7,939 bases of DNA from an uncultured Flammeovirgaceae bacterium (GTDB taxonomy: Bacteria; Bacteroidota; Bacteroidia; Cytophagales; Cyclobacteriaceae). Numbering within the stretch: the first letter of the stretch is position 1; every line of letters starts with the position of its first letter. The notes beneath the pieces are model-generated. The model did no database searches and had not been told where the DNA came from. It worked only from the letters and a program-made list of their open reading frames with translations. The DNA is taken from NCBI GenBank assembly GCA_946886805.1, contig CAMPJM010000170.1:1-7939 (forward strand), written 5' to 3'. Shown here in pieces: positions 1 to 7,939 of this stretch. The position numbers and the translations under genes were made by a program.

Positions 1-106
1 CTTTTCCCTCAGCATAAGTCAGGTCATCATCCGTTAAATCTGCATATTGCTGCTTCAGTTTACCTTTAATTACGTTCCAGTTTCCTTTAATTCTTAGATC
101 ATCCAT
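1..106 (-). CDS. CsbD-like stress protein, N-terminal part (cut by window edge)
   Basis: Reading the minus strand from an ATG at 106-104 gives 35 codons that run off the window start. The peptide opens [20 protein letters not shown] and continues with a TDDDL segment and an EGK at the edge. This is the pattern of CsbD-family small proteins (I/KGNW..IKGK.K..., LTDDDL...EGK), which are usually 55-75 residues long. The family is named after a Bacillus subtilis general-stress gene. Members are hydrophilic and helical, and their molecular role is not known. About half of the gene is missing here. No Shine-Dalgarno sequence or clear -33/-7 promoter could be picked out upstream, and the TTCAGA operator described elsewhere in this window is absent. 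The family call is fairly secure from the N-terminal signature alone; expression under stress is only inferred from the family. Confidence 0.8.
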
Positions 107-361
107 TTTTGATATAAATTAGTGAATTTTAAATTGTTTATTATTAAACTAAAGGGATTGTATAATTGTTTAAAATTGGATATTGTTTGAAGACATTGTT
201 TGAAATCGTTCTGGTTTTTGATTTTATATTAGGCGATTGATATAGGGACCTTAAGGACATTTATAATGTGATCATATTGCACGCTTTCTTCTTTATGTCC
301 GCACGGGCTTTTTATACATCTGGATGAATTCTTTTGCCCCCCTAACGTGTGCTTTCTAAGC
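107..361. other. intergenic region with short repeats, no gene seen
   Basis: This AT-rich stretch separates the CsbD-like gene from the 3' end of the HD-domain gene (both on the minus strand). It holds three spaced copies of ATTGTTTRAA on the plus strand (165-174, 182-191, 195-204; the last two are 13 bp apart). It also holds a near-palindrome at 265-278 (AATGTGATCATATT, one mismatched pair). No open frame in it resembles a protein. It must contain the promoter of the CsbD-like gene and possibly the end of the HD transcript, but no convincing hairpin with a T-tract was found for the latter. Confidence 0.5.
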
Positions 362-1024
362 TTAATTAATTTCAGCTACTATTTTCTGTATATTGGCTTG
401 CTTACCTTTTTCCATCACCTCTTTACCATATCTAGTGTAATAGCGATGGTTTGACAGAAATTTTAGATTAAATTCCCACCATTCGTTATCGGTATAAAAC
501 TTTTGAAAAACCAACTCCCATTCCTTCCTAAGTTTGTTCAGCGTTTCAAAATAATCAGCAGTTGACAAATGGAAGGTGTCTGCATCACAAATAATCCATT
601 CTGCACATTTAGAGGGAATTACTCCATTTCTTGTAGCCTCAATACATTCGAAAACATCTTTAATTGTTGAATTATCAGCATTGTAGCCTAATAGAAAATC
701 CTTAGCATACTTTTGGCTTACTTCCTCATGATTTTGATATTGCTGAATATATCCGACATCATGAAACCATGCTGAAATCAATAAAGCTTCTTCTTCTTCT
801 ATATTGCTGATTCCTTCCATTTTAGCTATACGCTGGCTGGCATTTACCACATTTTGTGTGTGTTCCAAAGAGTGAAAATGTAATTCTGGAGATAACATTT
901 TTTTCAAAAGAGGTTTCACGTAATCCTGTGTGGCTTGCAAAAGATTTCTTTTCATTTGTATCATTTGATATCTATCCTTATCTTCTACCTTATGCATGAC
1001 TTGAGAAATATTTTTTATTTTCAT
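362..1024 (-). CDS. stand-alone HD-domain metal-dependent phosphohydrolase
   Basis: The 220-residue soluble protein carries the HD-superfamily metal ligands in order: His55 in SLEHTQNVV, His88-Asp89 in AWFHDVGY, and Asp147 in CDAD. HD enzymes hydrolyse phosphate esters of nucleotides or nucleotide second messengers; the substrate here cannot be told. The order of segments (an LHFHSLEHT-type opening, AWFHDVGY, NHEE, CDADTFHL, then LRKEWE and NLKFLSNHRYYT near the C-terminus) resembles, from memory, the N-terminal HD domain of Bacteroidota proteins annotated as Pycsar-system effectors. Those carry a membrane-spanning domain after it. Here the protein stops after the HD domain and has no hydrophobic segment. 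The ATG at 1024 is kept because a perfect -7 box lies 21 bp upstream; internal Met10, Met21 and Met24 also precede the conserved region. It is transcribed divergently from the response regulator and has a copy of the TTCAGA tandem motif in its promoter, so control by that regulator is likely. Confidence 0.85.
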   Translation of the reverse strand: MKIKNISQVMHKVEDKDRYQMIQMKRNLLQATQDYVKPLLKKMLSPELHFHSLEHTQNVVNASQRIAKMEGISNIEEEEALLISAWFHDVGYIQQYQNHEEVSQKYAKDFLLGYNADNSTIKDVFECIEATRNGVIPSKCAEWIICDADTFHLSTADYFETLNKLRKEWELVFQKFYTDNEWWEFNLKFLSNHRYYTRYGKEVMEKGKQANIQKIVAEIN

Positions 1025-1045
1025 GGATGCCTACTCTATTCAATG

Positions 1046-1053
1046 CAAAAGTA
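1046..1053 (-). promoter_or_regulatory. -7 promoter element of the HD-domain gene
   Basis: On the minus strand this reads TACTTTTG, a perfect match to the Bacteroidota -7 consensus TAnnTTTG. It lies 21 bp before the HD gene ATG. No good -33 TTTG/TTG is seen at the usual spacing. Instead the TTCAGA tandem repeat ends 9 bp upstream, the arrangement expected if a response regulator bound there stands in for -33 recognition. The motif is seen directly; promoter activity is inferred. Confidence 0.6.
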
Positions 1054-1062
1054 AAGCTGAAA

Positions 1063-1079
1063 TCTGAAGAGATTCTGAA
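1063..1079 (-). promoter_or_regulatory. tandem TTCAGA operator (copy 1), HD gene promoter
   Basis: In minus-strand orientation the site is TTCAGA-N5-TTCAGA with both halves exact (1079-1074 and 1068-1063), an 11-bp period. OmpR/PhoB-family regulators typically bind such one-helical-turn direct repeats. The downstream half ends 9 bp before the TAnnTTTG box of the HD gene, overlapping where a -33 element would be, so activation is the likelier outcome. The binding protein is inferred to be the response regulator encoded 150 bp away. Confidence 0.6.
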
Positions 1080-1169
1080 TTACTTATGTTGAAATGGCTC
1101 CCCAAAAAGATCCGGCTTTTTTAATATTTTATAGTGATAATGAAGTTGTTATTGTAAATTGACTTTATC

Positions 1170-1186
1170 TTCAGACTTAATTCAGA
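1170..1186 (+). promoter_or_regulatory. tandem TTCAGA operator (copy 2), response regulator promoter
   Basis: The plus strand reads TTCAGA-N5-TTCAGA with both halves exact (1170-1175, 1181-1186), period 11 bp. It faces away from copy 1, so each points toward its own gene. With the same N9 spacing as copy 1, the -7 position would be 1196-1203, TTTCTTTA, only a partial match to TAnnTTTG. The site lies 45 bp before the preferred response-regulator ATG, which suggests autoregulation; whether positive or negative cannot be told. Confidence 0.55.
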
Positions 1187-1231
1187 ATCTATCGGTTTCT
1201 TTACCATATGTTGTCCTTAATAGATAATTTG

Positions 1232-1906
1232 ATGAAAATTTTAATTATTGAAGATGAAAATCAACTTTCAGAAAGTATATTAGCATACCTTGAGAAGGAA
1301 AAATATGTATGTGAGACAGCCTCTGATTTTAGAGAGGCGCAAGAAAAAATAGGGAGTTACCAATATGATTGCATCCTGTTAGATATTACCCTCCCAGACG
1401 GGAGTGGACTTACCCTGCTAGAACAACTAAAAAGCGAAAACAAGCTTGATGGGGTAATTATAATCTCTGCTAAAAATTCTTTGGATGATCGAATAGAGGG
1501 TCTTAATTTAGGCGCAGATGATTATTTGCCGAAGCCTTTTCATCTTTCTGAGCTGGGAGCCAGGATTGCTGCCATTATTCGAAGAAAACAGTTCCAGGGA
1601 GCCAATAAAATAATGATGAAAGAATTGTCTATCGATGTCAACTTAAGAAAAGTTTCAGTTTTTAGTGAAGAAGTTTCGCTTACCCGTAAAGAGTTTGATT
1701 TACTCCTTTTTCTAATTTCAAATAAAAACCGGCTAGTTTCTAAAAATGCCATTGCAGAGCATTTGTCAGGGGACGATGCAGATATGTTTGATAATTATGA
1801 TTTTATCTATGCTCACATGAAAAATATGAAGAAAAAGCTGATGGAAGCCGGTTGTGCAGATTACTTTAAAACTATTTATGGATTAGGCTATAAATTTGAA
1901 GCATAA
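1232..1906 (+). CDS. OmpR/PhoB-family response regulator
   Basis: This is a two-domain transcription factor of 224 residues, the usual length for the family. The N-terminal receiver domain (about 1-118) shows the acidic pair Glu7-Asp8 in MKILIIEDE, the phospho-acceptor Asp51 in LLDITLPDGSG, Ser79 and Lys101 in the LPKPF loop. The C-terminal winged helix (about 128-223) has SLTRKEFDLLLFL, the recognition-helix region ending in HMKNMKKKL, and the closing YGLGYKF hairpin. The frame is open from an ATG at 1208, but the ATG at 1232 is preferred because receiver domains begin almost exactly with MKILIIEDE and the eight extra residues have no family counterpart. The stop codon overlaps the kinase start by one base. 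Tandem TTCAGA sites at its own promoter and at three others in this window are the natural candidates for its binding sites; that link is inferred. Confidence 0.95.
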   Translation: MKILIIEDENQLSESILAYLEKEKYVCETASDFREAQEKIGSYQYDCILLDITLPDGSGLTLLEQLKSENKLDGVIIISAKNSLDDRIEGLNLGADDYLPKPFHLSELGARIAAIIRRKQFQGANKIMMKELSIDVNLRKVSVFSEEVSLTRKEFDLLLFLISNKNRLVSKNAIAEHLSGDDADMFDNYDFIYAHMKNMKKKLMEAGCADYFKTIYGLGYKFEA

Positions 1907-3171
1907 TGAATAGATTATTACACAGGACGCTTCTAAATTTTATTGTTTATTCATCGCTTATTGTCATAGTTAGTATTCCCCTTTTCTATTTCGTCATCAA
2001 GAAAATGTTTCACGATGAGATGGATGAATTTTTTATGCTTCGCAAATCAGAACTGGAAAGGAACAAAGAATACCTGAAGACTGATGAGGCCATAAGGCTT
2101 TATGGGATTTTAGATACGGATATTGTTTTGACACCTTCAAAAGAAATTGCACAAATAGATTCCTTTTATTCGATAGATTATTATGATTCACTGAGTGGTG
2201 AAATGAACCCTTACCGTGAATATCTGACCGGGATTGAAATAAACAATAAACCATACAAACTCATCATCAGGGAATCTCTGGTAGGAAACGACGAGCTGAT
2301 AAAAGGTATACTTACAGTGCAAGGAATATTTTTAGCTTTTTTATTAATAGGGCTAATTGTAATCAATCAGCGACAATCCAGAAAATTGTGGAAGCCGTTT
2401 TACAATACATTGGACAAGCTACAACACTATCAGTTGGATAAAGGTGAGCCCCTGAACTTAGCTGAAACCAACATTATAGAATTTGATGACCTGAACAAGG
2501 AAATCAACCAGCTCATTAAAAAAAATTACCAAATCTACCTGAACCAAAAAGAGTTTACTCAAAATGCTTCTCATGAGCTGCAAACCCCACTTGCCATATT
2601 TCAGTCTAAAGTGGAATTACTCATGCAGACCCAGCCTCTTTCAGAGGAACAGGCAGGCATTATTCAAAACATTGCTTCTGCTACTGGCAGGTTGTCAAGG
2701 TTGAACAGGAATTTGTTATTGCTTTCAAAAATTGAAAACAATCAATTTCTTCAAAAAGAGCCTATCGATCTAAAAGAAGAAGCAGAATCGGTTATAATGC
2801 AATTTGAAGAAAATATAAATAAAAAAAAGGTAACCTTTCAAATTGAGATTAAATCACCTGTTGCCTTACTTGCTAATCGAATTTTGATAGAAATATTGAT
2901 AAGAAACTTGGTTTCCAATGCAATACGATACAGTTGTCCGGAGGGTGAAATAAATATATTAATAAGAGAAAATACCCTTATTATCGAGAATACGGGTGCT
3001 GCTCCTTTGGAAGAACCTGAAAAAATATTTGACAGGTTCTACCGATCACACAGTGAATCAGAAGGGAGTGGACTTGGTCTTGCCATTGTAAAAAATATTT
3101 GTGATACTTCCGGATGGGAAATTACCTACTCCCCAAAAGATAATATACATTCCTTTTTAGTTCGATTCTAA
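1906..3171 (+). CDS. membrane sensor histidine kinase, partner of the response regulator
   Basis: The kinase has 421 residues. Transmembrane segments lie at about 13-31 and 139-155 and enclose a roughly 105-residue extracytoplasmic sensor region rich in Tyr and acidic residues, which I do not recognise as a named domain. After a linker come the dimerisation/phosphoacceptor helix with His223 in ASHELQTPLA, the N box Asn334/Asn338 in RNLVSNAIRYS, an F-box FDRFYR at 375-380 and the glycine-rich G2 box GSGLGLAIV at 387-395. The G1 box reads ENTG rather than the textbook DxGxG; from memory this is common in the RprX-like kinases of Bacteroidota, so the protein is probably active. Its ATG overlaps the last base of the regulator stop codon (TAATG), so the two are translationally coupled and form a cognate pair. 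It acts at the inner membrane; the signal is unknown. Confidence 0.95.
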   Translation: MNRLLHRTLLNFIVYSSLIVIVSIPLFYFVIKKMFHDEMDEFFMLRKSELERNKEYLKTDEAIRLYGILDTDIVLTPSKEIAQIDSFYSIDYYDSLSGEMNPYREYLTGIEINNKPYKLIIRESLVGNDELIKGILTVQGIFLAFLLIGLIVINQRQSRKLWKPFYNTLDKLQHYQLDKGEPLNLAETNIIEFDDLNKEINQLIKKNYQIYLNQKEFTQNASHELQTPLAIFQSKVELLMQTQPLSEEQAGIIQNIASATGRLSRLNRNLLLLSKIENNQFLQKEPIDLKEEAESVIMQFEENINKKKVTFQIEIKSPVALLANRILIEILIRNLVSNAIRYSCPEGEINILIRENTLIIENTGAAPLEEPEKIFDRFYRSHSESEGSGLGLAIVKNICDTSGWEITYSPKDNIHSFLVRF

Positions 3172-3173
3172 AA

Positions 3174-3190
3174 TTCAGAATTCCTACAGA
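3174..3190 (+). promoter_or_regulatory. tandem TTCAGA operator (copy 3), cmoA promoter
   Basis: Two bases after the kinase stop codon the sequence reads TTCAGA-N5-TACAGA (3174-3179, 3185-3190), one mismatch from the exact copies and the same 11-bp period. Nine bases further is CTCCTTTG (3200-3207), which keeps the TTTG of the -7 consensus at exactly the position seen in copy 1. The leader from there to the cmoA GTG is 78 nt and contains an imperfect hairpin (AAGAG at 3218-3222 with CTCTT at 3234-3238) without a T-tract. The site suggests that cmoA has its own regulator-dependent promoter rather than relying only on read-through from the kinase. Confidence 0.5.
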
Positions 3191-3285
3191 TTCTTTTAAC
3201 TCCTTTGTGATTAAATAAGAGTAGACTTTCTCCTCTTTAATAAATTTCTATTGAGTAAATATTTGAAAAAATAAAAAATAGACAA

Positions 3286-4026
3286 GTGGTTGAAGAAAAT
3301 AAAGTTGACAAAGTTTTTAAGGAGGAAATGAAAAAGGCTGCTGACTTCAAATTCAGTTCTAAAGTTGCCAGTGTTTTTGACGATATGGTCAGCCGTTCGG
3401 TACCATTTTATGGAGAAATCCAAAGAATGGTTTCCGAGTTAGCTGCAGACCATGCACAAGAGGGAACAAATGTATACGACTTAGGCTGCTCTACCGGCAC
3501 TACCATGATCGGGATGGATAGCTCTATTCAAGCCAATATTCGGTTTGTGGGGGTAGATGATTCCGCAGACATGCTCGCCAAATGTGATTCAAAATTGAAA
3601 GAAGCAGGCGTGACCAGACCCTATGAATTACAAGTAGCAGATTTACATCAGGATGTGCAAATAGAAAACGCCTCTGTAGTTGTATTATGTCTTACACTAC
3701 AGTTTATCCGACCTATTTATCGTGAGCAATTACTAAAAAAAATTGTAAATGGTCTGGTACCTAATGGGGCACTCATCCTTGTAGAAAAGATTCTCACCGA
3801 GAATAGCGAATTCAACCGGGATTTTATAAAGTACTACTATAACTACAAACGCAGAAACCAATACAGTGAGATGGAAATTTCCCAAAAAAGAGAAGCACTG
3901 GAAAATATTCTTGTTCCTTATAAGCTCAATGAAAATGTACACATGCTTCGGCAGGTAGGACTTTTTCATTGTGAAACGTTTTTTAAGTGGTTCAATTTTT
4001 CTGGTGTTATCGCAATAAAGAAATAA
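3286..4026 (+). CDS. cmoA: CmoA-type carboxy-S-adenosylmethionine synthase
   Basis: The protein has 246 residues, almost exactly the length of E. coli CmoA (247), and aligns along its whole length from memory: RSVPFY, VYDLGCS, VGVDDS, IENASVVVLCLTLQF, GLVPNGALILVEK, YSEMEISQKR and FKWFNFSG all have close counterparts. CmoA turns SAM plus prephenate into carboxy-SAM (Cx-SAM), normally used by CmoB to make the 5-oxyacetic acid of tRNA wobble uridine. Cofactor contacts kept are Tyr42, Gly67-Cys68-Ser69, Asp91, Asp119 and Arg202 (E. coli Arg199, which contacts the added carboxylate). The residue matching E. coli Asn132 is Cys135. The GTG at 3286 is chosen because homology begins before the next Met (residue 15) and no ATG exists upstream in the open frame. 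The stop codon directly abuts the next gene. No cmoB is in the window. A related Cx-SAM- or SAM-using methyltransferase remains possible. Confidence 0.87.
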   Translation: MVEENKVDKVFKEEMKKAADFKFSSKVASVFDDMVSRSVPFYGEIQRMVSELAADHAQEGTNVYDLGCSTGTTMIGMDSSIQANIRFVGVDDSADMLAKCDSKLKEAGVTRPYELQVADLHQDVQIENASVVVLCLTLQFIRPIYREQLLKKIVNGLVPNGALILVEKILTENSEFNRDFIKYYYNYKRRNQYSEMEISQKREALENILVPYKLNENVHMLRQVGLFHCETFFKWFNFSGVIAIKK

Positions 4027-4752
4027 ATGATCTCTATCGGTAACTTCTTTTTTAAGTATAGAAATTTTCTCTTCATTTTCCTGTACTTGTGTTTGTTTAT
4101 TCCTTCACCTGCCCTTTTCAATAGCGCTTTGTTTGGTGAAAACTACTATTGGTGGCCTATTATAATTGGACTAATAATAACCATATCGGGCCAACTAATA
4201 CGGGGAGCAACAATAGGATTAGCTTATATAGTACGGGGTGGAAAGGATAAGAAAGTGTATGCAGAGCACCTGGTAACAGAGGGTATCTTTAATCATTGCA
4301 GGAACCCTTTATATGTTGGGAATGTGCTGATGCTGGTGGGAGTGGGAATTTTATCAAACTCATTATTATACGTTGCAGTGTTCATTCCTCTTTTCCTATT
4401 TATATATCAAACCATTGTTCTGGCTGAAGAGAATTTTCTTCGTAAAAAATTCGGAGAAGCCTTTGAAGCTTACTGTGACCGCGTTAGCCGTTGGATGATC
4501 AATCTAAACGGGATTCAGAAGACATTTAAAGAAATGAATTTCAACGCCAAACGCTGGATACTGAAGGAATATAATACCCAGTTTGTATGGTTGGCAGGTA
4601 TTACGTTGATTTTACTTATAAAATATCCCCAAATTACAGATCATGACATGCCGTTACGCAATACACTTATTACTGTTATAATTTTGATTCTGGGGTTTAT
4701 TTATTTAGGTGTCCGGTATATGAAAAAATCAAAAAAATGGAAAGCGGATTAG
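4027..4752 (+). CDS. isoprenylcysteine methyltransferase-like membrane protein
   Basis: This is an integral membrane protein of 241 residues. Hydrophobic segments lie at about 12-32, 42-63, 98-130 (probably two helices), 184-198 and 211-228. The catalytic core of the ICMT/phospholipid-methyltransferase superfamily is recognisable: LVTEGIFNHCRNPLYVGN at 82-99 (family pattern GxYxxxRHPxYxG, with Asn in place of His) and EENFLRKKFGEAFEAYCDRVSRW at 134-156 (EExxLxxxFGxxYxxYxxxVxR). Such enzymes methylate carboxyl, amine or thiol groups of membrane-embedded substrates using SAM bound near these motifs. The C-terminal two-helix extension after residue 180 is beyond the core. The ATG follows the cmoA stop with no gap, so translation is coupled and a shared pathway is likely. 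The substrate cannot be told; a membrane lipid is the plainest guess. Confidence 0.85.
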   Translation: MISIGNFFFKYRNFLFIFLYLCLFIPSPALFNSALFGENYYWWPIIIGLIITISGQLIRGATIGLAYIVRGGKDKKVYAEHLVTEGIFNHCRNPLYVGNVLMLVGVGILSNSLLYVAVFIPLFLFIYQTIVLAEENFLRKKFGEAFEAYCDRVSRWMINLNGIQKTFKEMNFNAKRWILKEYNTQFVWLAGITLILLIKYPQITDHDMPLRNTLITVIILILGFIYLGVRYMKKSKKWKAD

Positions 4753-4768
4753 ATATTAGACAATAAAT

Positions 4769-4966
4769 ATGTGGTGGGCATTTGCATTATTATCGACTTT
4801 TTTGCTGCATTGACAGTCATATTTGCAAAAATCGGTGTAAAAGGGTATTGATCCTGGTTTGGCAACAGCCATAAGCACTATTATTGTTCTTTTTGTATCG
4901 TGGGGAATAGTAATAGCCAAAGGATCATTCTCTTTGCATTGCTACTTGATCAAAACTTGGTTTATT
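4769..4966 (+). pseudogene. EamA/DMT-family transporter remnant, two frameshifts, 3' truncated
   Basis: Three reading-frame pieces join into the start of a small (about 140-residue) EamA-family membrane transporter. The ATG at 4769 opens MWWAFALLST. One base is then missing in the T-run at 4798-4803 and the frame continues as AALTVIFAKIGVKG. One extra base near 4843-4845 (GGG) restores the first frame, which reads GIDPGLATAISTIIVLF and on through SWGIVIAKGSF to a KTWFI block near 4952-4966. These pieces match, from memory, the N-terminal half of such transporters in order and without gaps. After the KTW block the similarity ends, though the frame stays open to 5011, so the second half is deleted or degraded. 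Both frameshifts lie in homopolymers, so a sequencing error could explain them, but not the missing half. Confidence 0.75.
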
Positions 4967-5014
4967 AAAACTATTTTTTTCATTGATTTCTTTAATTTAG
5001 ACCTAAGCTAAATT

Positions 5015-5905
5015 ATGATTATTAGGTATATCTATTCAGTATCGGTTTTAATTGCCATCAGTGTTCAAACATTGGCTGCACAGCAACAACAACAACAACA
5101 ACAAGAATTTACCGATAGTATTGCGGGCTCGTCGCTTTATCAAACACAGCTATACCCATCTGAACCTGATCCTCCACCGGTCTTTGAATTCAGTGTTAAA
5201 AGGGATTTAAGTTTACTAGTTGGGGGGGCAGGGCTGGCGGTTGTGGGACAACTGATTAAAAGCAATATTGCACCGCTTACAGAGGCACAAATACTTGCCC
5301 TGGATCCCAGAGACATCAACAGTTTTGATAGAGCGGCAACGAGACAGTACCGTACTTCTGATGCGAATTTGAGTAATTATTTGTTAGCAGCGAGTGTAGT
5401 TTCACCACTTTCTGTATTGGCTTCCCGCTCCGTTAGAAGAGAGGTTATGCCTATACTTGTTATGTACCTCGAAACAGGTGCACTGGCTGGTGGTATCACC
5501 AACTTGTCTAAAGGCATTTTCAAACGGAAAAGACCCTATGTTTACAATCCAAATGTACCAATGGAGGAAAAGATGGATATAAATGCAAGACAATCTTTTT
5601 TTTCAGGGCATGTAGCCAACTCTGCTGCATTTCTTTTTCTAACAGCCTTTATGGTAAATCGTTACGCTGATAGACCGGCATGGAAATGGGTAGCCTGGTC
5701 AAGTGCTGTTGTTGTTCCAGGCACTATCGCATACTGGAGGTATAGCTCAGGCAAACATTTTCCGACGGATGTGTTGGTGGGATATCTCATTGGTGCTGGT
5801 TCCGGTTTGTTGATACCCGCACTACACAATGGTGAATTACCAAAGGATATCTCCTACAATTTGCAACCTCTATCAAATGGAGTGATGCTGACTATTACCT
5901 TTTAA
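5015..5905 (+). CDS. secreted PAP2-superfamily phosphatase
   Basis: The 296-residue protein starts with a signal peptide (MIIRYIYSVSVLIAISVQTLAA), followed by eight glutamines at 23-30. The three PAP2 motifs are present: KGIFKRKRP (KX6RP; Lys166, Arg173-Pro174), SFFSGH at 194-199 (PSGH motif with Phe for Pro, catalytic His199) and Arg242-X5-His248-X3-Asp252 in WRYSSGKHFPTD. Helical hydrophobic segments lie at about 66-83, 121-137, 145-162, 202-214, 225-240 and 254-270. Family members remove phosphate from lipid phosphates, undecaprenyl pyrophosphate or small phosphate esters; here the active site would face the periplasm. The last residues (NGVMLTITF) end in an aromatic-terminated beta-strand, seen in several Bacteroidota PAP2 proteins. 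No TTCAGA operator precedes it. It follows the transporter remnant by about 50 bp and was probably not part of the upstream operon. Confidence 0.9.
   Translation: MIIRYIYSVSVLIAISVQTLAAQQQQQQQQEFTDSIAGSSLYQTQLYPSEPDPPPVFEFSVKRDLSLLVGGAGLAVVGQLIKSNIAPLTEAQILALDPRDINSFDRAATRQYRTSDANLSNYLLAASVVSPLSVLASRSVRREVMPILVMYLETGALAGGITNLSKGIFKRKRPYVYNPNVPMEEKMDINARQSFFSGHVANSAAFLFLTAFMVNRYADRPAWKWVAWSSAVVVPGTIAYWRYSSGKHFPTDVLVGYLIGAGSGLLIPALHNGELPKDISYNLQPLSNGVMLTITF
5081..5104 (+). repeat. CAG(CAA)7 trinucleotide microsatellite in PAP2 gene
   Basis: One CAG followed by seven CAA codons encodes eight glutamines immediately after the predicted signal peptide. Because the unit is three bases, slippage would change the length of the glutamine run without breaking the frame. 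The run sits next to the probable signal-peptidase site, so its length could influence export or cleavage; that is inference. Confidence 0.85.
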
Positions 5906-6248
5906 TTAATTAGATAAATAAGCTGAAGCCGAACCTATCAGGATTCTCAGAAAGGCCGATAGTAATGTCCATGTCGCTGTAAACACAAGTGCAGGCAATT
6001 GCTCTATGAACCCAAAGTGATGCTGTAATTTTTTCATGTATAATAATGATTGTCAGTCCAGTTAATGCAAAGCACAAACGACGAGCAGGCACCATCAACA
6101 TATGATGTATTTCGGATATTAAAAGTGGTGAAGAAAAAATTATCATGGAATCGACCCGGGTGCTAAAGGAATGTCCATGATGATACTGTCTTGCAAATAT
6201 GGACACTTCAGGATTTCTTCAGAATTGATCGGGAACTTGCTTCAAAAA
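5906..6248. other. 343-bp gap without a recognisable gene
   Basis: Between the PAP2 stop and the preferred lipoprotein start lies sequence with no gene I recognise. The minus strand is open for 98 codons (6206 down to 5910) with mixed hydrophobic and charged composition, but the product resembles nothing I know and hydrophobic stretches continue in the other minus frames too. It may be a decayed membrane-protein gene or chance. The plus-strand part just before 6249 holds operator copy 4. No terminator hairpin with a T-tract was found after the PAP2 gene. Confidence 0.5.
6207..6223 (+). promoter_or_regulatory. tandem TTCAGA operator (copy 4), lipoprotein gene promoter
   Basis: The sequence TTCAGG-N5-TTCAGA (6207-6212, 6218-6223) has the same 11-bp period and one mismatch from the exact copies. 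It ends 25 bp before the preferred lipoprotein ATG at 6249. A CTTG at 6236-6239 sits one base short of the -7 TTTG position seen in copies 1 and 3; transcription from there would start almost at the ATG. The site is only outside coding sequence if translation starts at 6249 rather than at the ATG at 6171. Confidence 0.45.
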
Positions 6249-7199
6249 ATGTATATTCGATATATTACCTTATCTATTGCTTTTCTAGCTTGTCAATTTT
6301 TGACAAGTTGCAATAATACAGATGTTTTACCACGGGAAGATATTCAAATAAAGAAAACGGAATATCTTACAAAAAACGTTGTGCTGGTCGTTATAGATGG
6401 TCCGCGTTTTACGGAAACATGGGGTGATATCAATAAAAAATACATTCCAAAATTCACCGAACACTTAGCCCCCAAAGGTATTGTCTATAATAATTTTATT
6501 AATGGCGGAACCACAAATACTAATTCGGGCCATGCTGCCATCACAACAGGTTTCTATCAGGATGTAAACAATACTGGAGAAGAATACCCTACCTACCCTT
6601 CCATTTTTCAGGTATATCTTAATCAAACCAAGAACTCTCCAGATAAAGCATTCGTGATCACGGGGAAAAGTAAATTGAATGTATTAACTGACTGCACAGA
6701 TCCGCCTTGGAGAGGAAAATTCAATCCATCTTTTGATACCCAGGACAGAAGCGATTTGAAAACATTTGAAAGAGCCATTGAGATTTTTAATGCTCATCAA
6801 CCGAACTTAGCACTGGTACACTTTAAGGGACCGGACAAGTACGGCCATCAGGGGAATTGGGATAAATATATTCAAAGTATCCAAGAGACAGATTCCCTTT
6901 TGCTGAAACTATGGGAGTTTTTGCAAAACGACACAAAATATAAGGGCAGTACAACACTTATAATGACAAATGACCATGGCAGGCATTCCGACCATGTGGC
7001 CACAGGTTTTAAAGGACATGGAGATGGTTGTGAAGGATGCCGGCATATCAACTTTTTCGCCATTGGCCCAGACTTTAAACAAGGGTTTGTTCACAATCAG
7101 AAAAGGGGGCAGGTAGATATCTCACCTACTATAGCAGAGTTAATGGGCTTTACTATGCCCAAAGCAACCGGTAACGTCATGATTGAATTGTTTCAATAA
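6249..7199 (+). CDS. alkaline-phosphatase-superfamily phosphodiesterase-like lipoprotein
   Basis: Starting at the ATG at 6249 gives a 316-residue lipoprotein: a short hydrophobic signal, lipobox Leu18-Thr-Ser-Cys21, then a mature domain beginning NNTD. The frame is open from an ATG at 6171, but that would put 26 mostly polar residues before the signal peptide, so 6249 is preferred. The two-metal active site of the nucleotide pyrophosphatase/phosphodiesterase branch is complete: Asp50 in LVVIDG, nucleophile Thr91 in NTNSGHAAITTG, Asp196 and His200 in GPDKYGHQG, Asp242-His243 in TNDHGRH and His257 in KGHGDGCEGC. It should cleave phosphate mono- or diesters at the cell surface or periplasm; the substrate is unknown. 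A Cys261-X2-Cys264 pair directly after the last metal ligand is unusual and could be a disulphide. The barrel gene follows after 11 bp, so the two are probably cotranscribed. Operator copy 4 lies just upstream. Confidence 0.88.
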   Translation: MYIRYITLSIAFLACQFLTSCNNTDVLPREDIQIKKTEYLTKNVVLVVIDGPRFTETWGDINKKYIPKFTEHLAPKGIVYNNFINGGTTNTNSGHAAITTGFYQDVNNTGEEYPTYPSIFQVYLNQTKNSPDKAFVITGKSKLNVLTDCTDPPWRGKFNPSFDTQDRSDLKTFERAIEIFNAHQPNLALVHFKGPDKYGHQGNWDKYIQSIQETDSLLLKLWEFLQNDTKYKGSTTLIMTNDHGRHSDHVATGFKGHGDGCEGCRHINFFAIGPDFKQGFVHNQKRGQVDISPTIAELMGFTMPKATGNVMIELFQ

Positions 7200-7210
7200 A
7201 AACTGATAAA

Positions 7211-7843
7211 ATGAAAATTATACTTGTACTCTTTTTTGTAATGTCAACGTTTTTTGTTAACGCGCAAGACAGTAGCTCAAAAAAGTTCCACCAATTTGGA
7301 TTGTCCACTTCAGGGTTGGTTTATGAAAAATCATATAAAATTATTTTGTCACCCTATTGGGAGGTAAGAAAAAAATCCCATTCTTTTTCTGCCGGGCCCA
7401 CAATTCTACTAAGTTCAGAATTTGATGCAAGTGACAGAAAGTACCCTAAGCTTTCCGGGCTTCAAGGAAGTTATAAATACTACCCATTTCATGCATCGAA
7501 AAGGTTGGACTTTTTCTTTCATACTACTTTAAATCTTCAACGGATAGTGGATGAATGGGAGGCCAACCATTGGGACGCTAACTATTCTAAATATGAAAAT
7601 TTTGGATACAAGAATACCGAACTTATCATAAATCCACTTGTCGGTTATGGCATAAAGGTAAATTTGTTCAAAAACATAGCTCTACGTCATAGCATAGGTG
7701 CTGGGTACTTCTTTTCCTTCATAGATGGGGATGAATTTGATAATCCAGGTGATTTAGAAGTGGACTTTGACTATCGACCTTATGGGGGACAAGGTATAAG
7801 TTTGGAAGTAAAGTTGGGAATGGTATATACGTTAAATCATTGA
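7211..7843 (+). CDS. small outer-membrane beta-barrel-like protein, function unknown
   Basis: The 210-residue protein has a clear signal peptide (MKIILVLFFVMSTFFVNA, cleaved before Gln19). The mature part is built of alternating hydrophobic/polar strands with many aromatic residues: FHQFGLSTSGLVYE, KIILSPYWEV, SFSAGPTILLSS, GLQGSYKYYPF, LDFFFHTTLNLQ, ELIINPLVGYGIKVNL, HSIGAGYFFSF, and a final GISLEVKLGMVYTLNH. That is the look of an eight-to-ten-strand outer-membrane barrel, though it does not end in the classic aromatic residue. I do not recognise a named family. It starts 11 bp after the lipoprotein stop and is probably its operon partner, which suggests that the phosphodiesterase and the barrel act together at the outer membrane. 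That role is inferred from position only. Confidence 0.75.
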   Translation: MKIILVLFFVMSTFFVNAQDSSSKKFHQFGLSTSGLVYEKSYKIILSPYWEVRKKSHSFSAGPTILLSSEFDASDRKYPKLSGLQGSYKYYPFHASKRLDFFFHTTLNLQRIVDEWEANHWDANYSKYENFGYKNTELIINPLVGYGIKVNLFKNIALRHSIGAGYFFSFIDGDEFDNPGDLEVDFDYRPYGGQGISLEVKLGMVYTLNH

Positions 7844-7873
7844 AGATTCGAAACACTTTAATGGTTATTTTTT
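7838..7873 (+). terminator. possible Rho-independent terminator after the barrel gene
   Basis: CATTGAAG (7838-7845) can pair with CTTTAATG (7856-7863), eight pairs including one G-U, with a 10-nt loop. GGTTATTTTTT follows. The stem is AU-rich and overlaps the stop codon, so it is weak, but its place at the end of the lipoprotein/barrel pair fits. Confidence 0.35.
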
Positions 7874-7907
7874 AGGAAGTTTTTTGAATTTAGTCTGATC
7901 AAATAAA

Positions 7908-7939
7908 ATGGAGAAAATAAAGAAATTTAACCTATACAC
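7908..7939 (+). CDS. possible start of another gene, cut by window edge
   Basis: An ATG at 7908, preceded by an A-rich AAATAAA, opens a frame MEKIKKFNLY that runs off the window. Ten codons are too few to recognise a product. It is listed because the position (65 bp after the previous stop, beyond a possible terminator) and the A-rich pre-start region fit a Bacteroidota gene start. Confidence 0.3.
   Translation, partial: MEKIKKFNLY

Follow-up and report, generated by a model that had tools for sequence, protein, structure and literature searches.

A one-turn direct repeat as the probable operator of an OmpR-family response regulator in an uncultured Flammeovirgaceae bacterium

Here, a stretch of 7,939 nucleotides from an uncultured Flammeovirgaceae bacterium (contig CAMPJM010000170.1, positions 1 to 7,939; in the following the window) was analyzed with respect to the direct-repeat motif TTCAGA-N5-TTCAGA, which stands at four places around the genes of a response regulator and its sensor histidine kinase. 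Sequence comparison indicates that the response regulator encoded at 1232-1906 very probably uses the motif as its operator. Read in this way, it is the operator of a known class of regulators, whose word and promoter layout are new within the literature searched: no earlier report of the motif was found in the open-access literature, a search that left most subscription journals outside.

The initial annotation, made from the letters of the window, had described two exact copies and two copies with one mismatch, all outside genes, and both statements were borne out. With at most one mismatch four sites were present in the window as compared to a mean of 0.10 and a maximum of 1 in 200 dinucleotide shuffles, and with at most two mismatches there were seven as compared to a mean of 1.31, a count reached by none of the 200 shuffles. 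On the preferred gene starts (1232, 3328 and 6249) all four sites (Boxes 1 to 4, Table 1) are intergenic and oriented toward the gene they precede; the intergenic share of the window is 18%, and the chance of finding four out of four sites there is about 0.001. A caveat applies to the site at 6207, which the alternative ATG at 6171 would place within the lipoprotein frame; the start at 6249 was preferred because a typical lipoprotein signal, MYIRYITLSIAFLACQFLTSC, begins there. A profile trained without the window gave the four sites the top ranks on both strands (23.7, 22.6, 20.8 and 19.1 bits), the next-best match being one of 12.4 bits inside the kinase gene, and none of 200 shuffled windows held four scores matching the level of the fourth site. 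Three further sites, at 1643, 4514 and 7883, have two mismatches and were discarded: none of them is among the 14 highest-scoring profile matches, and chance probably accounts for them. A minus-strand match at 4513 (10.4 bits) overlaps the 4514 site but has the opposite orientation.

That the four sites are merely chance repeats in AT-rich DNA is extremely improbable. It is true that TTCAGA and TTCAAA are common words and that the bare exact motif, with 14 matches in eight genomes as compared to two for the reversed pattern, fell in open reading frames (ORFs) as called in nine of the 14 cases, of which the one in L082 probably precedes the true start; as a genome-wide marker the bare motif was rejected as weak. 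However, no shuffle reached the observed counts, and the motif is conserved, strand-biased and bound to one clade of regulators. In 20 regions around close regulator relatives, 0.90 of which is ORF by the calls, 40 of 45 profile matches of at least 14 bits were intergenic and 37 of these 40 were oriented with the regulator gene, part of these matches stemming from training regions.

Related loci came from two sources: a scan of a genome collection, limited to the 80 best loci encoding a relative of the regulator (30-62% identity), and a search of 241 genomes from the order of L014 (Ekhidna), which yielded closer relatives of up to 70% identity. For 54 loci with a regulator of at least 48% identity, the window excluded, each hexamer was counted as a direct repeat per region. 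With a spacer of five bases and at most one mismatch, CAAAAT, TTCAAA and TTCAGA were counted upstream of the regulator gene in 10, 7 and 6 of the 54 loci, respectively, and TTCAAA, TCAAAA and TTCAGA behind the kinase gene in 8, 6 and 6, the top words including phases of a single repeat; with spacers of 3, 4, 6 and 7 bases every word stayed at five loci or fewer and TTCAGA at 0 to 2. When two mismatches were allowed the test was uninformative, the commonest AT-rich words reaching 9-15 loci at other spacers too. Unseeded expectation maximization on 53 upstream and 53 post-kinase regions (106 regions, the window excluded) with 60 random starts converged on TTCAAAATTTCTTCAGAATTGA, the eight best starts being phases of one motif, and the seeded model reached a log-likelihood ratio of 312 as compared to 86 (standard deviation 12, largest value 114) for 20 shuffled sets that preserve dinucleotides approximately. 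In Bacteroidales, 32 of 59 regions from 30 loci carried a match of at least 14 bits as compared to a mean of 0.26 and a maximum of 2 after shuffling and to 2 when the opposite strand was read, with two of the regions (L146, from the same genome as L015) belonging to the training set and some loci being near-identical pairs. There, the box precedes the regulator gene and/or a PepSY_like gene (PF11396, formerly DUF2874) behind the kinase gene; L016, L017, L018 and L021 have a PepSY_like gene at this place. Taken over the relatives, the conserved positions of the box are upstream of the regulator gene and directly behind the kinase gene, and at these two positions it has been kept in many of them.

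Moreover, the box follows the phylogeny of the regulator. A tree of 97 regulators divides into an outgroup of 12 and a clade of 85 members, the window regulator among them. Each subclade in turn served to train a motif-seeded model, and at a threshold of at least 10 bits these models detected the box in the other subclades: in 13 of the 47 A regions and 14 of the 42 C regions after training on B (0.6 and 0.4 when shuffled; 3 and 0 on the opposite strand), in 26 of the 75 B regions and 15 of the 42 C regions after training on A, and in 20 of the 47 A regions and 39 of the 75 B regions after training on C, with shuffled means of 0.4 to 3.6 and opposite-strand counts of 0 to 4 over all runs. Under each of the three subclade models, none of the 23 outgroup regions carried a box. 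The recognition helix reads [IVL]-Y-x-[HQ]-x-KN in all 84 clade members counted and in none of the 12 outgroup members, all of which have N-[FY]-[IV]-D-x-H-x-KN instead, a difference that parallels the presence and absence of the box. The tie between motif and encoded OmpR-type regulator proposed in the initial annotation is thereby supported, the box being conserved at two positions in many relatives, following the clade and missing from the outgroup regions.

The -7 element of Bacteroidota promoters, with the consensus TAnnTTTG, is the element of the phylum's housekeeping sigma factor. Among 83 sites of at least 13 bits, chosen irrespective of the downstream letters, 57 had TAnnTTTG with at most one mismatch exactly 7 bases after the 19-base box; by clade these were 12 of 21, 37 of 44 and 8 of 18 sites, as compared to 0.3, 0.6 and 0.3 with shuffled downstream letters. 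In the window, Box 1 is followed by an exact copy at this offset, TAnnTTTG by itself not being rare there (12 exact copies found, 11.1 expected). The box would accordingly reach from about -38 to -20 and overlie the -33 element, which would fit a class II activator, and the fixed spacing suggests direct promoter activation by the regulator. OmpR/PhoB-family proteins usually bind tandem direct repeats as a dimer. We propose that two head-to-tail TTCARA half-sites, 11 bases or one helical turn apart, would be bound in tandem by a dimer of the phosphorylated regulator. Because the box lies 7 bases upstream of TAnnTTTG in most box-bearing relatives, the bound dimer would cover the place of the -33 element, and it probably recruits RNA polymerase directly. 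The box shows the features that mark an OmpR/PhoB-family operator, namely a direct repeat of 11-base period seen with spacer 5 only, a strand bias, a gene-ward orientation and, among the relatives, a -7 element behind it.

Two other explanations bear on the same promoter layout. Box and -7 element might together form the promoter class of an alternative sigma factor, the regulator gene merely lying behind such a promoter, and a fixed 7-base spacing to TAnnTTTG is indeed expected of a promoter element. This is very unlikely, since the -7 element is the one used by the housekeeping sigma factor, near-identical half-sites one helical turn apart fit a dimeric regulator and not a sigma factor, and the box tracks a single regulator clade to the exclusion of the outgroup regions. 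Alternatively, as the box covers the -33 region, the regulator might repress from it. HaeR of Porphyromonas gingivalis is reported, in the accessible part of the account, to be an activator or a repressor depending on the promoter (PMC5706477). Nevertheless, we regard repression as unlikely here: the exact distance to the -7 element would be what one expects of activators taking over the -33/-35 contact, whereas repression would need no such register.

Under the proposed operator function, the regulator would control its own operon and the operon behind the kinase gene, positions that recur in many relatives across the phylum; the best supported targets in the window are the regulator gene itself and the position behind the kinase gene. 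In this genome the HD-domain gene, whose promoter has the perfect layout, would very probably be controlled as well, and the lipoprotein-barrel operon too, less certainly; these two targets we infer from site quality alone. Box 1 is likely to be active and Box 4 probably so. It may be argued instead that only Boxes 2 and 3 act, Boxes 1 and 4 being fortuitous or the sites of another protein, as conservation is limited to the positions upstream of the regulator gene and behind the kinase gene and as 14 of 15 homologues of the lipoprotein phosphatase lack an upstream box, the remaining one having a weak match. This restriction to two boxes appears quite unlikely, given that Boxes 1 and 4 have the two best scores of the window and are intergenic and directed toward genes, that Box 1 has its exact -7 element at the fixed offset and that comparable multi-box clusters occur in the near relatives L127 and L128. 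In each of these, four intergenic boxes form a local multi-promoter cluster: one stands before an operon of a sulfatase-family gene, regulator and kinase, and the other three before a unit with a TonB receptor, a PepSY_like gene and a gene for a PAP2 protein, L127 being the locus in which the gene families were tested. The local regulon suggested in the initial annotation therefore has counterparts in its multi-box form, but with other genes. In L014, the box precedes a gene for a TonB-type receptor.

A number of observations weigh against the proposed regulator-operator pair or limit its reach. The nearest regulator relatives found are 70% identical, which puts the four sites beyond a test by close alignment, and a site of at least 13 bits was present in only 83 of 164 non-outgroup regions. 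At the fixed offset, the letters behind Boxes 2, 3 and 4 differ from the -7 element at two, two and three positions, respectively, and Box 1 has the only good one. A strict form of the box, TTCARAWTNNCTTCARAWT, gave 64 matches in the 241 genomes as compared to 7 for the reversed pattern. Its distribution speaks for the pair, 35 of the 100 genomes with a regulator (E <=1e-60) and 14 of the 141 without one having the strict box (Fisher p 2e-6), but this co-occurrence test is inflated because regulator-bearing genomes tend to be larger. As judged by eye, at least 12 of the 64 matches have a regulator match no more than 3 kb away; in the 30 strict-match loci fetched, 20 sites lay outside ORF calls and 6 had a -7 element with at most one mismatch at the fixed offset, and many strict matches may be chance occurrences or not promoters of this type. 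A strict Bacteroidales version gave 8 matches versus 0 in 247 genomes, one of which, in G369, has a regulator match (46% identity) at a distance of about 110 bases, and only 4 of the 8 genomes with the strict box are among the 79 having a regulator match. The initial annotation had assigned cmoA with the methyltransferase gene, and the lipoprotein with the barrel gene, to the regulon, and had named absence of the motif from relatives that keep the genes as speaking against its proposal. This is what was found: homologues of the methyltransferase gene are present at 64-78% identity in 11 of the 241 genomes (5 more at 31-39%), and none of the 11 cmoA/methyltransferase loci had a box of at least 12 bits in the fetched flanks, nor did 14 of the 15 phosphatase homologues have one upstream. 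In L212 a weak match (12.3 bits) is located 117 bases upstream of the phosphatase homologue; in L202 a match of 14.0 bits lies inside a neighbouring ORF. These assignments are thus not supported by conservation; as targets the two units are unproven, and they would be either lineage-specific or wrong.

Table 1. Boxes, promoter element and genes in the window.
Feature	Positions	Strand	Description
Box 1	1061..1079	minus	TTCAGAATCTCTTCAGATT; exact motif (1063-1079); faces HD gene; 23.7 bits, top profile score of the window
Box 2	1170..1188	plus	TTCAGACTTAATTCAGAAT; exact motif (1170-1186); upstream of regulator gene (autoregulation); 19.1 bits
Box 3	3174..3192	plus	TTCAGAATTCCTACAGATT; one mismatch (3174-3190); directly after kinase stop codon, upstream of cmoA; 20.8 bits
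Box 4	6207..6225	plus	TTCAGGATTTCTTCAGAAT; one mismatch (6207-6223); upstream of lipoprotein gene; 22.6 bits
-7 element of HD gene	1046..1053	minus	TACTTTTG; exact TAnnTTTG at 7-base offset from Box 1
HD-domain protein, putative phosphohydrolase	362..1024	minus	ORF; PF01966 28 bits (cut-off 22); divergent to regulator
OmpR-family response regulator	1232..1906	plus	Response_reg and Trans_reg_C above cut-off; recognition helix as in the clade of 85 regulators
Sensor histidine kinase, PorY family	1906..3171	plus	NF052314 450 bits (cut-off 350)
cmoA, carboxy-SAM synthase	3328..4026	plus	TIGR00740 256 bits (cut-off 193), frame scored from 3286
PEMT-type membrane methyltransferase, LmtA-like	4027..4752	plus	PF04191 above cut-off; TIGR04571 90 bits
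PAP2 phosphatase	5015..5905	plus	PF01569 71 bits
Alkaline-phosphatase-superfamily lipoprotein	6249..7199	plus	PF00884, PF01663 and PF01676 above cut-off
Putative outer-membrane barrel	7211..7843	plus	ORF; probably one operon with lipoprotein gene

Homology comparisons placed the regulator in the OmpR/PhoB family, its receiver (PF00072, 93.9 bits) and winged-helix domain (PF00486, 57.7 bits) both scoring above cut-off. PhoB/PhoP boxes are direct repeats one helical turn apart bound by members of this family; they differ from the window box in their word, and the regulator reached 153.7 bits with the Bacteroidota PhoB model (NF053854), whose cut-off is 270. The PmrA/BasR box of enterobacteria is a direct repeat of the form hexamer-N5-hexamer with an 11-base period, and the gene order is pmrCAB. 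Layout and period are the same in the window box, and BasR was among the best solved-structure matches; on the other hand, the half-site sequence is another one, the effector genes are only partly alike and the regulator scored 171.9 bits against the equivalog cut-off of 330 (NF007928). In L126, L127 and L128 a gene for a sulfatase-family protein of 637-644 amino acids lies directly before the regulator and kinase genes, as pmrC does before pmrAB, with a box in front. The L127 and L128 proteins have weak LtaS/phosphoglycerol transferase matches below cut-off, and in L125 an ORF of 640 amino acids occupies the same position with no box of 14 bits in front.

The window kinase passes the cut-off of the NCBIfam PorY-family model, named after the PorX/PorY system of P. 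gingivalis. PorX is a PglZ-domain regulator encoded away from PorY, whereas the adjacent partner of the window kinase is an OmpR-type regulator with a Trans_reg_C DNA-binding domain. Six of six other clade kinases pass as well (384-486 bits), the kinase of outgroup locus L025 scoring 245; with seven of seven tested clade kinases passing, all encoded beside a regulator of the OmpR-type clade, the family name of NF052314 over-reaches. The name is no proof of a role in type IX secretion, and no type IX secretion genes were recognised among the window proteins in Pfam and NCBIfam scans.

By layout, the nearest studied system would be HaeSR of P. gingivalis (PGN_0752/0753; PG0719/PG0720), in which, as in the window, the regulator gene adjoins the kinase gene; this link is inferred from the gene order given in papers. 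According to the accessible part of the source, PG0718 and the DUF2874 lipoprotein PG0717 share the conserved HaeSR neighbourhood, and the neighbours PG0717-PG0720 are stated to be conserved in Bacteroidales (PMC3772042). HaeSR differs in that the window regulator belongs to another subclade than the PepSY-linked regulators of Bacteroidales and has no adjoining PepSY gene; a PepSY/DUF2874 gene behind the kinase gene was looked for in the window, and cmoA was found there. The accessible text on HaeR reports binding to its own promoter in electrophoretic mobility shift assays and, from chromatin immunoprecipitation sequencing, sites before 57 genes (PMC3764172), and that on the asSuGR promoter gives a footprint by position only, at -365 to -314 upstream of PG0106 (PMC8757827). 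For this best-studied presumed family member, targets are thus reported, and no operator consensus or word was found in the accessible parts of the published accounts of HaeR targets, the footprint account included.

Regulator relatives were found in 100 of the 241 genomes of the L014 order and in 79 of the 247 Bacteroidales genomes, the looser E-value limit used for Bacteroidales admitting paralogues. With a box in a fixed promoter register, regulons could be predicted from sequence, among them regulons of Bacteroidales from gut and mouth, and the box offers a simple test for each predicted target of a large, little-studied regulator family.

As to the remaining genes, CmoA was recognised by TIGR00740 and by an arginine aligned with Arg199 of the Escherichia coli enzyme (chain 4gek; numbering offset derived by hand from the alignment), a residue whose role is described in the accessible part of the source (PMC3663124). 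The methyltransferase scored far below the cut-off of 325 bits for LmtA lipid A 1-phosphate methyltransferase (TIGR04571). The PAP2 gene has no box directly upstream, as 4753-5014 holds none of the 14 best profile matches of the window. The putative barrel protein had no match in Pfam or NCBIfam, the barrel label coming from the initial annotation, and a PADLOC scan of three window proteins gave no match.

Furthermore, cmoA adjoins the PEMT/LmtA-like gene in all 11 close homologues (L183-L193), and the five distant LmtA-like genes (L194-L198) are without cmoA in the fetched flanks. CmoB (TIGR00452, cut-off 275) was above cut-off in none of 13 genomes, the 11 included; weaker matches occur in all 13 (best 74 bits) and likewise in each of the 14 controls, a single one of these control genomes being above the cut-off. 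The linkage to cmoA, the lack of a CmoB above cut-off and the kept Arg199 position together suggest that the window methyltransferase may be a membrane carboxymethyltransferase dependent on carboxy-S-adenosylmethionine (carboxy-SAM). A phage precedent for CmoA with a partner other than CmoB is CmoX, according to the accessible part of the account (PMC12783734). The methyltransferase residues R70, H90, R155, R176, K180, R211, K233 and K234 do not vary among the 12 cmoA-linked sequences, and most of the five unlinked ones have another residue or none in their place; they are candidates for a carboxylate-binding residue. The regulon may have a role in envelope-lipid remodelling. A wider idea, which we put forward as speculative and rather improbable, is that of a Bacteroidota counterpart of PmrAB, i.e., a phylum-wide family with one operator word that here switches on the remodelling of membrane-lipid phosphates, the cmoA-methyltransferase pair behind Box 3 making a carboxymethylated instead of a methylated membrane lipid from carboxy-SAM.

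Two further arrangements of the box were seen among the relatives. In L021, two identical one-mismatch boxes at 12454 and 13024 (570 bases apart) lie inside one ORF of 1139 amino acids, presumably as an internal protein repeat. In L126, the box behind the kinase gene (9733-9752) doubles as an inverted repeat, TTCAGAATGAATTCAGAAT, with matches on both strands (20.5 and 15.2 bits).

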